This document shows, piece by piece, positions 10,424 through 16,392 of a DNA stretch of 64,000 bases; position 1 is the first letter of the stretch; every line of letters begins with the position of its first letter. The DNA lies in the NCBI RefSeq assembly GCF_024585285.1, contig NZ_CP040755.1:4092001-4156000 (forward strand). Reading direction: 5' to 3'. The notes under the pieces were generated by a model. That model was not told the DNA's origin. It ran no database searches and saw only the letters and a list, made by a program, of their open reading frames with translations. The DNA comes from Colwellia sp. M166 (GTDB taxonomy: Bacteria; Pseudomonadota; Gammaproteobacteria; Enterobacterales; Alteromonadaceae). Both the position numbers and the translations under genes were made by a program.

Positions 10424-12307
10424 TTAGCCATTACTCACATCTTCAAAGTCAGCATCGATAACATCATCGTTATTCACTTCGTCGTTGGCAGCATTGGTTT
10501 GTTGTTGTGCTTGCTGAGCTTGCATTATTTTACTGTAAGCTTCTTGTAATGCGGTTTGTCGCATTACAATTGCGGCTTTATCATTACCGTTAACGGCCAT
10601 TTTAAGTTGCTCTATTAAGCTATTAAGCTCAGATTTTTGTTCATCTGCAAAGCTCTCCATGGCTGTTTGTACTGTATGAATAAACTGATCCGCTTGGTTA
10701 CGTTGCTCAACTAACTCACGTTTTTCTTTATCGTCATTGGCGTGCAGTTCAGCATCATTGACCATGCGATTAACTTCATCTTCGCTCAAACCACTCGAGG
10801 CGGTAATGGTAATGCTTTGCTCCTTACCGGTGGCTTTGTCTTTGGCTGAGACATTTAAAATACCATCTGCATCAATATCAAAAGTCACTTCAACTTGTAC
10901 TGAGCCACGAGGACCTTGAGCAATATCACTTAAGTTAAACTGTCCTAACGATTTATTATCAGTTGCCATTTCACGTTGGCCTTGCAGTACATGCACCGTA
11001 ACCGCTGCTTGGTTGTCTTCGGCGGTTGAGAACACTTCAGACGCTCGTGTTGGTATGGTGGTATTTTTTTCAATAAGCTTGGTCATTACACCGCCTAAGG
11101 TTTCAATACCCAGTGATAATGGCGTTACATCAAGTAATAACACATCACCTACTGTGCCTGACAACACACCTGCTTGAATGGCTGCACCCATGGCAACGGC
11201 TTCATCAGGGTTAACATCTTTACGTGGTTCTTTACCAAAAAAGGCTTTTACTGCGTCTTGTACTTTTGGCATACGTGTTTGACCACCCACCAAAATAACT
11301 TCGCTGATATCACTTTTGCTTAAACCGGCATCTTTTAACGCTTGCTGACATGGTGCTATGGTACTTTTGACTAAATCATCGACTAATGATTCTAATTTAG
11401 CACGAGTTACCTGCACGTTTAAATGCTTAGGGCCACTGGCGTCTGCTGTAACATACGGCAAATTAACGTCAGTTTGTAGTGCTGATGATAGCTCTATTTT
11501 AGCCTTTTCAGCCGCTTCTTTAATACGCTGTAGTGCTAATGGATCTTGCTTAACATCGATGCCACTGTCTTTTTTGAATTCATCAGCAAGGTAATTAATC
11601 AGGCGTAAATCAAAATCTTCACCGCCTAAAAAGGTATCACCATTGGTTGCTAATACTTCAAATTGTTTCTCACCATCAACGTTAGCTATTTCAATAATAG
11701 ACACATCAAAAGTACCACCACCTAAATCGTAAACGGCAACTTTCTGATCCGCTTTACTGCTTTTATCAACACCGTAAGCAAGTGCTGCAGCGGTTGGTTC
11801 GTTAATGATTCGTTTAACGTTAAGGCCGGCAATTTTACCTGCATCTTTTGTCGCTTGGCGTTGTGAGTCGTTAAAATAAGCCGGTACGGTAATAACCGCT
11901 TCTGTCACTTTTTCACCTAAGTAAGCTTCAGCATCTTTTTTCAGTTTACGTAACAGTTGTGCTGATACTTCTTGTGGCGATAGTTTTTTACCATTGACTT
12001 GCACCCAAGCATCGCCGTTGTCTGCTTTGACAATTTTATAAGGTGCTAGCTTGATGTCTTTTTGCACTTCTTTGTCGTCAAATTTACGACCAATTAAACG
12101 TTTAATAGCAAATAAGGTGTTTTCGGAGTTGGTTACCGATTGTCTTTTTGCTGGTTGGCCGGCTAATATTTCATTGTCTGCATAAGCAACAACAGAGGGG
12201 GTAGTACGGCTACCTTCAGCATTTTCAATAATTTTTGCTACGCCGCCTTCCATTACCGATACACATGAGTTTGTTGTACCTAAATCAATACCAATAGTTT
12301 TAGTCAT
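10424..12307 (-). CDS. Hsp70 chaperone, DnaK paralogue
   Basis: 627-residue Hsp70. Seen: phosphate loop [12 protein letters not shown] (residues 5-16), [32 protein letters not shown], the [10 protein letters not shown] adenosine motif, linker [14 protein letters not shown], a beta substrate domain and a C-terminal lid ending in a Gln/Asn-rich stretch and [13 protein letters not shown]. All ATPase motifs are intact. Gammaproteobacterial dnaK is usually followed by dnaJ. Here the neighbours are a divergent Crp/Fnr regulator and a CbpA gene, so I read it as a second, specialised DnaK. No sigma-32 promoter is obvious. The upstream region instead has a TGTCA-N6-TGACA palindrome. Confidence 0.9.
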
Positions 12308-12642
12308 AATAATTACCTGCTTCTTTTAAATTAACTTCATAAAAAAGGTCTGATGCTTTAAGGCTATTACCCAGTAAGCAGTTTGACCGTATAAACAGCC
12401 TTCACTGTTTGGTTAGTGGAGCTATATTATGCAAGCTGAGAAAATGCTTCTGTCACAAATATGACAGTATGAATAAATTAGATATTTATTTTTACATTAA
12501 AAAATTTTAAGATTAAAAATCAATTTGTTAGGTTTTTTGTGTTAACAGTAAAAAAATCAATAGGGTGATTGGCTTTTACTATATTGCAGCAACTAGGTAG
12601 AATAAATCACTCGTTTACTATAACGCTAAAGTTTTGTTAACT
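12308..12642. other. Divergent promoter region between dnaK and crp-like gene
   Basis: 335 bases without a gene. It should hold promoters for both divergent genes. The only strong signal is the palindrome at 12450-12467. The stretch next to the regulator start is very A/T-rich. Confidence 0.6.
12450..12467. promoter_or_regulatory. Crp/Fnr-type palindrome (dnaK / regulator)
   Basis: CTGTCA-CAAATA-TGACAG, perfect 6-base arms with the 6-base spacer typical of Crp/Fnr-family operators. It lies between the divergent dnaK and Crp/Fnr-like genes. The same TGTCA-N6-TGACA recurs at 16041-16056 ahead of cbpA. Confidence 0.7.
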
Positions 12643-13416
12643 ATGAATAAAAATGTTAGTCATTTACCGCAAAAAGCTAATCCGGTATTAGTTAAACAAG
12701 CCAATATTTTTGCTGACTTACCGAGCAAGCTTATTGAAGACTTTCAACAGGAGTTTCAGCTCGATGAATGGCGTAAAGGTGAGTACATTAATGCTAATAT
12801 TTTAATGCAGCGCTTTTTTGTCGTGATTGATGGCCAACTAGAAATAAAGCAAAGTAATCCAGAAACGGGCCGGGAAGCGACACTTGATATGCTTTATGCT
12901 GGTGATTGTTTTGATTTAATGGTGTTGTTAGATAATCAGCCCCACGATGTTATTATTTCACCGTTAACGACAGTCAAGTTACTTTCAGTGAAGCTTGATA
13001 CTATGCGTCATTGGTTATGGACTTACCCTGAATTTAATCAGCAGTTTATGCCTTATTTAGCACAGAAAATGCGTGAAAAAGAACAGCAAGCCAGTAGTCT
13101 TATTTTAAATGACGTACCTACGCGCTTAAGTCGTATTATCTTAAATCATATCAATAAAATTAAGTATTATACCGGCAGTAAAGCTGAGGAGCATCAGCAT
13201 CATTTGGTTAATGGTTTAAATGATGACACCTTAGCGCGTATGGCCGGCTCGGTAAGACAGGTGATCAATAAGCAGTTACAGCTATGGAAAAAAGCTGGCA
13301 CGCTTGATAAAAAACGTAACCAGCTCATTGTTAAAGATTTAGAAGCACTAGAAGCTGCCGCGAAATTTACTGAAAATTTACCTAATGCGCCTTTATTGCC
13401 GACTACCAAAAGATAG
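12643..13416 (+). CDS. Crp/Fnr-family transcription regulator
   Basis: 257 residues from the ATG at 12643; a TTG nine bases earlier is in frame but less likely. Seen: an N-terminal cyclic-nucleotide-binding-type beta barrel (about residues 20-135, with the jelly-roll glycine in YAGDCFDLMVLL), a long helix (MREKEQQASSLILNDVPTRLSRIILNHI) and a C-terminal winged helix with LNDDTLARMAGSVRQVINKQLQLWKKAGTLDKK, where SVRQVINKQL is the recognition helix. No cysteine cluster for an iron-sulphur centre is seen at the N terminus, so it is not a classical Fnr. The signal is unknown. It is divergent from dnaK and flanked by matching palindromes that I think it binds. Confidence 0.82.
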   Translation: MNKNVSHLPQKANPVLVKQANIFADLPSKLIEDFQQEFQLDEWRKGEYINANILMQRFFVVIDGQLEIKQSNPETGREATLDMLYAGDCFDLMVLLDNQPHDVIISPLTTVKLLSVKLDTMRHWLWTYPEFNQQFMPYLAQKMREKEQQASSLILNDVPTRLSRIILNHINKIKYYTGSKAEEHQHHLVNGLNDDTLARMAGSVRQVINKQLQLWKKAGTLDKKRNQLIVKDLEALEAAAKFTENLPNAPLLPTTKR

Positions 13417-13420
13417 CTGT

Positions 13421-13500
13421 AAGCTGTCAGTTTGGAGCTATCAGTAAAAAACAAGTGCTAGACAAAAAACTAACGATCAGTTACTCAAAGCTGACAGCTT
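13421..13500. repeat. Inverted repeat between convergent genes
   Basis: AAGCTGTCAG (13421-13430) and CTGACAGCTT (13491-13500) form 10-bp arms around 60 bases, with weaker pairing beyond. It lies between the regulator and the cbpA 3' end and looks like a small dispersed palindromic repeat or a weak shared terminator. Confidence 0.45.
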
Positions 13501-13505
13501 TAAAC

Positions 13506-14331
13506 TTATGGCTTTCTTTTCTCTGCAAGCTCTTTTAACTGTTGATATAGTGCTTGCTCTTCCTCAGTTAAGCTTTTTGGTAGAGCAACTTTTAGCTTCA
13601 CAAAAAAGTCTCCGACAATTTTACCAGGCAAACCACGGCCTTTTAAGCGCATTTTACTGCCACTACTGGTCAATTTTGGCAAGGTCAGATCTATGGTGCC
13701 TGTTGGTGTTGGTAGTTTTATTTTATCACCTAAAGCCGCTTGCCATGGGCTAATGGCGAGCTCTGTGGTGATATCTGCTCCTTCAACGCTATATAAAGGG
13801 TTGGGATTAAAGCCAACTTCGATATATAAGTCGCCATTGGCTCCACCAGCAAAGCCAGCTTCACCTTGCTTTTGCAAACGAATTTTTTGACCGGCTTTAA
13901 TACCCTTTGGAATATTGATTTTCAGCGTGCGCTCTTTCGTTTGCATTTGCCCGCGCGGACCTGCAACCTGCTCACGTAGAGTAAGGTTTCGCGTTGCTCC
14001 GGTGTAGGAGTCTTGTAAATCAATCATGATTTTTGTTTGGCTATCTTGTCCTTTTGCCGCTCGGTGACTGGAATGATGAGAGCCTGTTGTATGTTGGTTT
14101 CCACCAAAGCCGCTACCGAATAAGGATTCAAAAAAATCACTAAAATCACCTTGCCCGGCACTGTTGAAGCTACCACTACCTTGATGAAATTGCTCTTGCC
14201 AATTTGGTGGTGGTGTAAAACCTGATTGTCCACCTTGCCAGTTACTACCCAGTTGGTCGTAGGCTGCGCGTTTTTCTTTGTCACGTAGCACTTCATAGGC
14301 TTCATTGATGTCTTTAAAGCGGCTTTCGGCA
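13506..14331 (-). pseudogene. cbpA: cbpA 3' part, cut off by IS4
   Basis: Larger piece of a CbpA-type DnaJ co-chaperone: end of the J domain (FKDINEAYEVLRDKEKRAAYDQLG), a G/F/S-rich linker, then two DnaJ C-terminal beta domains (TLKINIPKGIKAGQKIRLQKQG, GDLYIEVGF, TPTGTIDLTLPK) and a short tail. It lacks the HPD motif, so it should not stimulate DnaK. A frame reaches into the IS left end, where an ATG at 14358-14360 could start a 284-residue fusion. Joining 15892-15760 to 14320-13506 rebuilds a 948-base, 315-residue gene in frame, close to CbpA length. The insertion is therefore the only visible defect. Confidence 0.88.
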
Positions 14332-15759
14332 TAATGCCAGTCAGTTAAGCTAACTGGCATTTTTCTTTTTATGAGGGTATTTAGATGGTTTGGGTTTCAC
14401 CCAGCGGGGATATTTTCTATCTTCCCGCCTCGTCGGAAGTTTGAATAAGAGCAGGGTTTTAAGTAAATGATCCCAATGCATAGGAATATTACCGGGGCTC
14501 ATTATTGATATTGACGAAAAATACTGAACCACTGCCATCGAACTACTCGAGAAACTCAGCTGATTTGGCCATATACCTGTTTCTTTCGCCGCCATCGTCA
14601 TAATTATTCGTATTAAATTATAGGCGAGTAATACGCCCCATAGCTCCTGGCGAACCATATCAGGACGCTTACTTCTCAAATGGTATGCACTATTAAGCAT
14701 CGTTTGTTTTATTTCCCTAAACCCGAGTTCTATCTCCCATCGATGGCAGTATAACTCAACAATTTCGTCGCCAGGAAACCGCAATCTATCTGTCATTGAC
14801 GTTAATATGCGATAGCTTTTACCCTTTATTGTTTTACTGATTAATCTGGCGTTAATGATTTCAGGTACATCTGGAAAATTCTTTTGTGCATGCTTTGTTG
14901 TTTTCAATGCAATGATATGGTCATTTTTACCAACCGATGTGATAATTTCATACTGTAAGTCCGGTCTTGCTGGGATCAACCAATGTCGATCACTCCCCGT
15001 TTGGTGCCAACGATTAAGCATCCCAAGTGAATAATATCCTTTATCAAACATAGTAAGAGAGTTATCAGGTGTGCGTTCAATCAAACGCTCAGCTAGCTTC
15101 ATTTCATTCGTTTTGTAATTATCAAACTCACTACTGAGTAGTTGATGACTGGTAAGCTCCATATGGCAGACCATACGGATTTGTGGAAAGGCTGTGTCAC
15201 CATATTGGTTGCTGCCAGAAGAAAATGCTTTACGATTATCTGGGGTGTCAGGTGTTCGCCAGACCACACCGTCCACAGCCAATAGGTTCAAACCATTCCA
15301 TGTTTCAAATTCGTGTTGTTTATACATTGCTTGTGCAGATTTATTGAAGACTTGTTTAACCGAATCATCGCCTAAGCGTTGTCTGGCTTGAACCATAGCA
15401 CTGGGAGCAACAAGCTGACTCTTGCCAGGTAACATGATGTCTAACTTAGTGGCGATATTCCAAACAGACTCTTTTTCTAAATAAAGCCATACCAATCACT
15501 GACCATAAAACCGCTTCCAGTGGTAGCCTACGTTTGCGAACCGTAGCAATGCCAGCCTTTTCAAAGCCTTGTTCAATGATTTCAGGAGAAAGGATTTCTG
15601 ATAGTTTTTCGAAGGTATGGTATCGGTTACTTTCTTCAAGTGTCGTCTGTAGTGCTTGTTCAATATTCACAAAAAAATCCGTAGTTAGTTACCTAACTAC
15701 GGATTTTGCATGATCTTTTGGATCGGTCAACCGATCGTTATCTTAACTGATCGGCATTA
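14332..15759. mobile_element. IS4-family insertion sequence (1428 bp)
   Basis: The ends are TAATGCC.../...GGCATTA, with inverted repeats continuing through TAATGCC(AG/GA)TCAGTTAAG. The right end matches the terminus I remember for IS4 itself. An 11-bp direct repeat GGCTTTCGGCA flanks it (14321-14331 and 15760-15770), which is the IS4-type target duplication. The length is close to IS4 (about 1.43 kb). It carries one transposase gene broken by a one-base frameshift. It sits inside cbpA in the same orientation as that gene. The exact duplication suggests a fairly recent insertion. Confidence 0.92.
14350..15670 (-). pseudogene. IS4 transposase, frameshifted
   Basis: DDE transposase of the IS4 family in two frames: the N-terminal part runs from GTG 15670 to about 15472, the rest from there to 14350. 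Together about 440 residues, as in IS4 (442). Seen: first aspartate in LLAVDGVVW, second in [10 protein letters not shown], and the signature Y-(2)-R-(3)-E-(6)-K as [15 protein letters not shown]. The frames switch at a run of five T (plus strand, 15472-15476). Removing one base restores GMALFRKESVW, which matches the family. Natural inactivation is likely. Slippage on the A5 run of the mRNA, or a sequencing error, cannot be excluded. Confidence 0.85.
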
Positions 15760-15892
15760 GGCTTTCGGCATCTTTTTCTTTACTAACATCAGGGTGAAAT
15801 TTACGTGCTAATTTTCGATATGATTTTTTAATGTCATCTTGAGACGCGGTTTTATCAACGTCCATAATTTTATAATAATCTTTATAATTCAC
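15760..15892 (-). pseudogene. cbpA: cbpA 5' part (J-domain start)
   Basis: First 44 residues of the CbpA gene split by IS4, including the target duplication. GTG start at 15892, five bases after a strong AGGAGG ribosome site. The peptide [14 protein letters not shown]...[21 protein letters not shown] has the J-domain helix II basic patch and the essential HPD. The reading frame then enters the IS right end and stops. This start and the 3' part at 13506-14331 rebuild one intact gene when the IS and one duplicate are removed. Confidence 0.9.
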
Positions 15893-16040
15893 AGTAACCT
15901 CCTGTGTAAATAAATCTGCTGTTAACTATTATTGTTACTGTTGTGGCTAGAGGCTGTTGCTCTTTCACTTGATAGCTAAATAGGATTAATTAAATAGTCT
16001 AATTTAATGGTGCTAGTATAAAGTAAATAAAATATTTAAA

Positions 16041-16056
16041 TGTCAGCAATGTGACA
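16041..16056. promoter_or_regulatory. Crp/Fnr-type palindrome (cbpA / GNAT)
   Basis: TGTCA-GCAATG-TGACA, with the same arms and spacer as at 12450-12467. It lies between the divergent cbpA and acetyltransferase genes, about 150 bases from the cbpA start and 61 from the other. Confidence 0.65.
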
Positions 16057-16116: not shown

Positions 16117-16392
16117 ATGTCTTATACACTGATCCATAATGCGGCTGAGTCTAACTATGAATACCATATTGATGGTCATATAGCTTACATTACTTATGAT
16201 GAGCAAAATGGCCATATGCATTTAACTCATACTATCGTTCCCGATGCACTAGCAGGTAAAGGGCTTGCAAAAAAATTGCTAGAAGATGTATTACAACAGA
16301 TAAAAAAAGATCATAAAAAAGCCGTGGCACAGTGCTCTTATATTGTTAAATATTTGGAAAAAAATCCTCAAGCAAGTAAGTTTTTCGTTTGA
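16117..16392 (+). CDS. Small GNAT-type acetyltransferase (YjdJ-like)
   Basis: 91 residues, matching the short single-domain GNAT family (Acetyltransf_CG, YjdJ type). Seen: the IAYITYDEQNGHMHLTHTIVPDALAGKGLAKKLLEDVL run, in which AGKGLAKKL is the acetyl-CoA pyrophosphate loop, followed by CSYIVKYLEKNP that closes the fold. Such proteins have no assigned substrate. Ribosome site AAAGAGA lies eight bases before the ATG. It is divergent from cbpA and shares the palindrome at 16041-16056, so it may belong to the same regulon. Confidence 0.82.
   Translation: MSYTLIHNAAESNYEYHIDGHIAYITYDEQNGHMHLTHTIVPDALAGKGLAKKLLEDVLQQIKKDHKKAVAQCSYIVKYLEKNPQASKFFV

Follow-up and report, generated by a model that had tools for sequence, protein, structure and literature searches.

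The 64,000-nucleotide stretch of Colwellia sp. M166 analysed here (contig NZ_CP040755.1; hereafter the window) contains a gene for a Crp/Fnr-type regulator of 257 residues (12643..13416, plus strand) that diverges from dnaK2 (10424..12307, minus strand), a second DnaK gene whose product matches Pfam HSP70 and is 69% identical to the housekeeping DnaK. Between these two genes lies the palindrome CTGTCA-CAAATA-TGACAG (12450-12467), and a similar one, TGTCA-GCAATG-TGACA (16041-16056), lies between cbpA and a gene for a GNAT acetyltransferase. An earlier note, made from the letters of the sequence, had proposed that these palindromes mark a private chaperone regulon; both were confirmed at these positions, and they present the half-site layout—two 5-base half-sites, six bases apart—that would be expected for the Crp/Fnr superfamily. 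The note's assignment of the regulator to this superfamily likewise held, as HTH_Crp_2 and cNMP_binding both score above the Pfam cut-off, giving the protein an effector domain and a Crp-type helix-turn-helix. Judged from sequence, the regulator is very probably a Crp/Fnr-family activator acting at TGTCA-N6-TGACA, centred at about -41.5, on dnaK2 and cbpA, through sigma-70 and in response to a signal other than that of sigma-32.

The number of palindromes contributes little to this view. The window holds three matches to the core TGTCA-N6-TGACA with at most one mismatch (two of them exact), an unremarkable number in itself since 1.9 are expected, and one such match to the 18-letter form CTGTCA-N6-TGACAG against 0.05 expected. 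Four exact cores occur in the genome, a single contig of 4,844,971 bases, versus three for a reversed control pattern; across 98 genomes of the family the exact core is present 0-16 times per genome and the control pattern 0-10 times. With four exact copies in the genome the palindrome is rare, and as it is also conserved at the two window sites (see below), neither observation that the note had named as refuting its proposal was made. Since the core count alone means little, the argument is carried by position and conservation. Only the two window sites lie outside open frames. The remaining two (L005 and L006) fall within frames that appear by eye to be a UbiA-type prenyltransferase and lepB, and a wider exact-match regulon in this genome was rejected for that reason. 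A recurrent site, TGTCATCAGACTGACA or its relative TGTCAGTCAGATGACA, of which many of the orthologue genomes listed contain a single copy, was considered as a further member and rejected because in the three copies checked (L078, L096, and L097) it lies in open frames of 101-106 codons.

The significance of the two window sites derives from their conservation in relatives. The core of the predicted dnaK2 operator (12450..12467) is exact upstream of dnaK2 in 42 of 43 orthologous locus records, a set that includes the window's own and holds some genomes twice (L007-L030 and L031-L049); the remaining record, L048, ends short of dnaK, and the site is present in the longer copy of that record, L028. 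The predicted cbpA operator (16041..16056) is exact in 18 of the 19 distinct loci with the cbpA start in view, window included, and is kept where cbpA lies away from the regulator gene or on another contig (L093, L094, and L095). At one locus, that of Cognaticolwellia sediminilitoris (L007, 6807-6831), dnaK2 is preceded by a pair of site-like palindromes that overlap at a distance of 9 bases; one is exact and the other has a single mismatch.

Both sites stand in a nearly fixed relation to a putative promoter. Towards dnaK2, a TAxxxT hexamer starts 22 bases past the site in all 27 loci and corresponds to a predicted -10 element in the window (TAATAT, 12424..12429, minus strand). Towards cbpA, where the predicted -10 element is TATACT (16015..16020, minus strand), the hexamer starts at offset 22 in 13 loci and one base closer, at 21, in the remaining five of 18. 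Towards the regulator gene, TAxxxT is found at offset 22 in just 2 of 27 loci, and no offset exceeds the count of 8 seen at 16. A -10 element so placed puts the centre of the site at about -41.5, where CRP-like activators bind at class II promoters; on predicted start sites, the dnaK2 and cbpA operators would thus sit in class II geometry. At a 17-base spacing the -35 hexamer is poor, with matches of 1.93 of 6 and 1.11 of 6 letters. Sigma-32 promoters consist of CTTGAA and CCCCAT separated by 13-15 bases. With spacers of 12-16 allowed, the best match at 24 of the 27 dnaK2 loci (L022, L100, and L101 were left out) was 7.8 of 12 letters, no better than the 8.25 of shuffled sequence, whereas the housekeeping dnaK, used as a positive control at 27 loci, scored 10.3 of 12 against 8.1 after shuffling. 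Sigma-32 control of dnaK2 was therefore rejected, and the suggestion that the pair is controlled by the regulator rather than sigma-32 stands for dnaK2, the gene on which the comparison was run.

Regulator orthologues at E <1e-100 are present in 19 of 147 genomes, own included, and the records at 24 loci are named Colwellia, Cognaticolwellia, Pseudocolwellia, Paraglaciecola, and, once, Alteromonadaceae metagenome-assembled genome. A search of plasmids for the regulator returned 14 records, all below 60% identity, with 29.7% in the top row. The distribution of the three genes was followed in 28 regulator-less genomes, hand-chosen from family genomes without a strong regulator match and including four of the same genus; five of them (G018, G020, G024, G031, and G062) contain weak homologues, with E values from 3e-4 to 6e-11, and one (G006) is 66% complete. 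Neither DnaK2 nor a close CbpA was found in any of the 28. A single DnaK at E<=1e-150 is present in 27 and none in the other; 26 of these proteins are 67-70% identical to DnaK2, and the 27th is a contig-end piece 95% identical to the housekeeping DnaK of Colwellia sp. M166. At E<=1e-40, 25 of the 28 lack a CbpA; in the other three the CbpA is 36-43% identical, and the loci fetched for it contain neither an exact nor a 1-mismatch site. The 11 DnaK2 proteins that were sampled, among them one from another family (L168), group together as a single clade with 100/100 support in a 39-row tree. By their co-occurrence, the regulator, dnaK2, and cbpA therefore look like a unit, cbpA having been sought in part of the orthologue genomes. 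Beside the cbpA of one relative (G007; L093, 3016-3150) lies a fragment with stops that is 41% identical to the regulator and is perhaps the remnant of a second copy.

The recognition helix of the regulator reads V204-R205-Q206-x-x-N209-K210, and V204, R205, Q206, N209, and K210 are invariant in 27 aligned orthologues that are 68-93% identical to the window protein. FNR-type sensors, which bind a 4Fe-4S cluster, have an N-terminal cysteine cluster, and the regulator has a single cysteine, C89. Its best PDB matches are 3i54, 3d0s, and their kin, which we take to be Mycobacterium tuberculosis CRP, followed by 3r6s, 4byy, and kin, presumably corynebacterial GlxR, with CooA further down. In the alignment with 3i54, FGEL is replaced by FDLM and PRTSSA by PHDVII—positions that we take to be the conserved phosphate-binding residues for cyclic AMP (cAMP)—and the cAMP-pocket residues are thus not kept. 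The NCBIfam CRP model gives 26.4 bits, below its cut-off of 266. Judged by these residues, the inducing signal would be something other than cAMP.

More distant homologues link the recognition helix to the palindrome. When 369 genomes of the class were searched with a profile, 25, including that of Colwellia sp. M166, proved to have homologues; of the 34 matches outside the latter genome, 31 were aligned, with G346:C121 and two fragments from G232 set aside. Twelve of them have R-Q, and 19 have R-V or, once, R-P, at positions that we take to correspond to CRP 180 and 181. The sites were then sought in 20 loci. Among the 11 with an R-Q protein (4-14 kb each), the exact palindrome is present in eight and a version with at most one mismatch in all 11; no exact or 1-mismatch palindrome occurs in the nine R-V loci (101 kb), and the contrast in exact sites gives a Fisher p of 0.0014. 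Six loci of weaker homologues (L157-L162, 3.5-3.7 kb each), kept apart from this comparison, have no site with at most one mismatch. Of all the perfect 6-N6-6 palindromes that the R-Q loci contain, CTGTCA is common to five loci and the next on the printed list occurs in one, whereas in the R-V loci no 6-letter arm (spacer 4-6) is common to more than two of the nine and no palindrome emerged. Genome-wide, CTGTCA-N6-TGACAG occurs 17 times in nine R-Q genomes (control 2), in some cases inside open frames, and five times in the 15 others (control 2). The R-V homologues at L176, L177, L178, L180, and L186 are arranged as tandem pairs.

The genes that adjoin these distant sites were called from the longest open frames and Pfam hits, in assemblies of which several are fragmented. 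They comprise dnaK2, clpB, and a cation ATPase gene (L168), cbpA with a CbpM-like gene and phosphoenolpyruvate (PEP) synthase (L172), YfdX (L181 and L187), DUF308, HdeD-like (L182, L207, and L211), SpoIIAA-Usp (L205 and L209), and FtsH beside an amino acid permease (L204); a number of other neighbours either fall outside the stress genes or lack a Pfam match. At L169 (901-3691), beside the regulator gene, three Hsp20 genes, cbpA, and a CbpM-like MerR_2 gene follow one another in the same direction behind a 1-mismatch site. The promoter register recurs as well: the motif lies upstream of clpB, cbpA, yfdX, DUF308, and Usp genes there, often with the -10 element at the spacing seen in Colwellia. 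When every exact site in 20 loci of R-Q genomes was scored automatically in both directions, TAxxxT stood at offset 22 in 16 of the 52 directions scored (other offsets averaged 0.84, the highest being 4, at 23) and in none of 48 directions at 24 control sites, a set that includes two sites outside open frames of 100 codons (L091 and L105) and copies of one recurrent site. Among promoter-facing sites picked by eye, 13 of 23 have the -10 element at this offset. This result is largely independent of that in Colwellia because the genes and families differ. The occurrence of motif and protein-repair genes beside distant homologues points to a putative stress-protection circuit separate from the usual heat shock response. 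The word "private" suits the regulon at the exact-match level in this genome and does not extend to the distant relatives, where the stress gene set is wider.

In the activator model, the R-Q recognition helix would read TGTCA by a CooA-like mode of base reading, and a regulator dimer would occupy TGTCA-N6-TGACA at about -41.5 upstream of dnaK2 and cbpA. Class II activation from there would bring ordinary sigma-70 RNA polymerase to promoters whose -10 element is good and whose -35 element is poor, so that a second DnaK and its J-protein would be made together on a signal distinct from the heat shock of sigma-32. At sequence level the model is based on the sites and their conservation, the spacing of the -10 elements, the gene co-occurrence, and the lack of a sigma-32 promoter at dnaK2, and the part of the note's proposal that places dnaK2 and cbpA under the regulator, as a small regulon, is supported; binding by the regulator, activation rather than repression, and the signal are what we infer. 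The neighbouring genes in relatives permit no more than a guess at the signal, for instance low oxygen, nitric oxide, or redox stress; Usp, Hsp20, cation ATPase, and PEP synthase there may recall dormancy sets for low oxygen or nitric oxide.

Several points count against the activator model. The orthologues share ancestry, and the -10 register at 27 of 27 loci is consequently not 27 independent events. At cbpA the -10 element lies one base nearer in 5 of 18 loci, and the cbpA of L020/L099 lacks an exact site; upstream of it stands a 2-mismatch TGTCG-N6-TAACA, followed by TATGCT at an offset that is 22 by eye. In 13 of the 24 named loci (L015, L017-L019, L021-L027, L029, and L030) cbpA lies outside the fetched stretch. 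Shuffled sequence yields about one to four 1-mismatch matches per 119 kb by chance, so that the single one at L175, 6.5 kb from the regulator gene, may be a chance match. Finally, a Crp/Fnr site centred at -41.5 can also repress.

This last point leads to an alternative that we regard as unlikely, in which the regulator occupies the same sites as a repressor and shuts RNA polymerase out of dnaK2 and cbpA until it is released by a signal. Crp/Fnr proteins can repress from positions that overlap the -35 element, and the predicted site does overlap the -35 region. However, the -35 hexamers are so poor that the bare promoter should be weak, and this spacing is seen again in other families, at different genes. 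Rather less probable is that the site between dnaK2 and the regulator gene mainly serves the regulator's own control, which the note had included in its regulon. In most loci the site does lie between the two divergent genes, but in four (L011, L028, L030, and L100) it stays with dnaK2 while the regulator gene starts 1.0-3.0 kb away with no site of at most two mismatches within 400 bases upstream, and the scarcity of a -10 element at offset 22 on the regulator side argues in the same direction; self-control through this site was accordingly given up.

It is less probable again, and in our view decidedly improbable, that another factor such as the housekeeping Crp owns the palindromes and that the adjoining regulator gene is incidental. 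TGACA-like half-sites are used by several factor families, which leaves room for this explanation. Against it stand the association of exact sites with R-Q homologues (8 of 11 loci) and not with R-V homologues (0 of 9), as well as the failure to find dnaK2 in the 28 regulator-less genomes. Moreover, Escherichia coli CRP reads TGTGA-N6-TCACA, as given in the available part of PMC3938503, and so differs at the fourth letter. That the palindromes are chance matches has next to no probability: a background of about four exact cores per genome would allow for it, but conservation refutes it, along with the -10 register and the correlation with the recognition helix.

The strain itself appears to retain the activator circuit in reduced form. 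Its cbpA is interrupted by an IS4-family insertion (14333..15759, minus strand, ends approximate; DDE_Tnp_1 / transpos_IS4_1), flanked by a 12-base target duplication, GGCTTTCGGCAT, at 14321-14332 and 15760-15771. The 5′ part of the gene, with the J domain, occupies 15772..15892 and the 3′ part, with Pfam DnaJ_C and a partial DnaJ, 13506..14332, both on the minus strand. The 16041 site hence now precedes a truncated cbpA, and because the gene is split, CbpA function has probably been lost in this strain; dnaK2 is then probably the only gene still served by the regulator. In at least some relatives (L008, from Cognaticolwellia aestuarii KCTC 12480, and L093) cbpA is intact. On the other side of the site, the gene for a small GNAT acetyltransferase (16117..16392, plus strand; Pfam Acetyltransf_CG), which the note had tentatively added to the regulon, probably lies outside it: in its direction TAxxxT stands at offset 22 in a single one of 18 loci, and at L093, L094, and L095 the site travels with cbpA and no GNAT gene was found in the locus.

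Bacterial chaperones are usually treated as heat-shock genes under sigma-32 or repressors such as HrcA and HspR. We lean towards a broader reading, in which several gammaproteobacterial families would share an undescribed, sigma-32-independent regulon for protein quality control, driven by R-Q Crp/Fnr activators at class II promoters with sites at -41.5. It would cover dnaK2, cbpA with its CbpM-like partner, clpB, small heat shock proteins, YfdX, DUF308 (HdeD-like), Usp, and possibly FtsH; the Colwellia relatives would have a stripped-down form, regulator, dnaK2, and cbpA, gained and lost as a unit, and the sister R-V subfamily would have changed its DNA site. If a Crp/Fnr-type activator is indeed dedicated to a second DnaK and its J-protein, some bacteria would deploy protein repair on another signal, perhaps metabolic or related to gases or redox state, with a chaperone set reserved for it. 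The R-Q/R-V split, together with the presence or absence of the site, would also constitute a natural test of how DNA specificity changes in these regulators.

Among known systems, the sigma-32 heat-shock regulon also targets DnaK and a J-protein; here the housekeeping dnaK has a sigma-32 promoter, whereas dnaK2 has none. Searches confined to open-licence papers brought up no description of a chaperone regulon under its own Crp/Fnr regulator, nor of the TGTCA-N6-TGACA motif. The transmissible locus of stress tolerance overlaps in content with the loci of the distant relatives (small Hsp, FtsH, YfdX, and HdeD-like genes), as far as the accessible text of PMC8290217 goes. It differs in its regulator, described as MerR-like, and a search of the paper's main text finds no "Crp"; its island of an shsp20-clpK core with a MerR-like orf1 is not among the genes looked at around the window regulator. 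CooA, the carbon monoxide (CO)-sensing Crp/Fnr activator, shares the R-Q recognition helix with the regulator in the PDB alignment, and its site is reported in the available part of PMC545781 as TGTCGGCNNGCCGACA, a TGTC...GACA palindrome. The regulator thus appears to combine the two CooA-type features, R-Q helix and TGTC half-site, although CooA serves CO oxidation genes and its sequence relation to the regulator is weak (E 9e-6). Class II promoters of E. coli CRP involve the same Pfam domains and a site centre at about -41.5 before the -10 element, as predicted here, but the half-site is TGTGA instead of TGTCA. Action of Crp-family proteins on dnaK is itself already in print, in the parts seen of PMC3938503 for CRP and of PMC9603854 for RedB. 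In M. tuberculosis, CRP bound upstream of a dnaK operon in gel shifts (PMC3938503); that case, by the same partial source, differs in concerning the housekeeping dnaK-grpE-dnaJ genes, with a SigH site, cAMP dependence, and a position at -301 to -286 from the start codon. RedB of Rhodobacter capsulatus, a Crp/Fnr member, is reported to act directly on dnaK, yet it differs from the proposed activator in being, according to the available sections of PMC9603854, a dnaK repressor and a global regulator, with 451 genes altered in the mutant.

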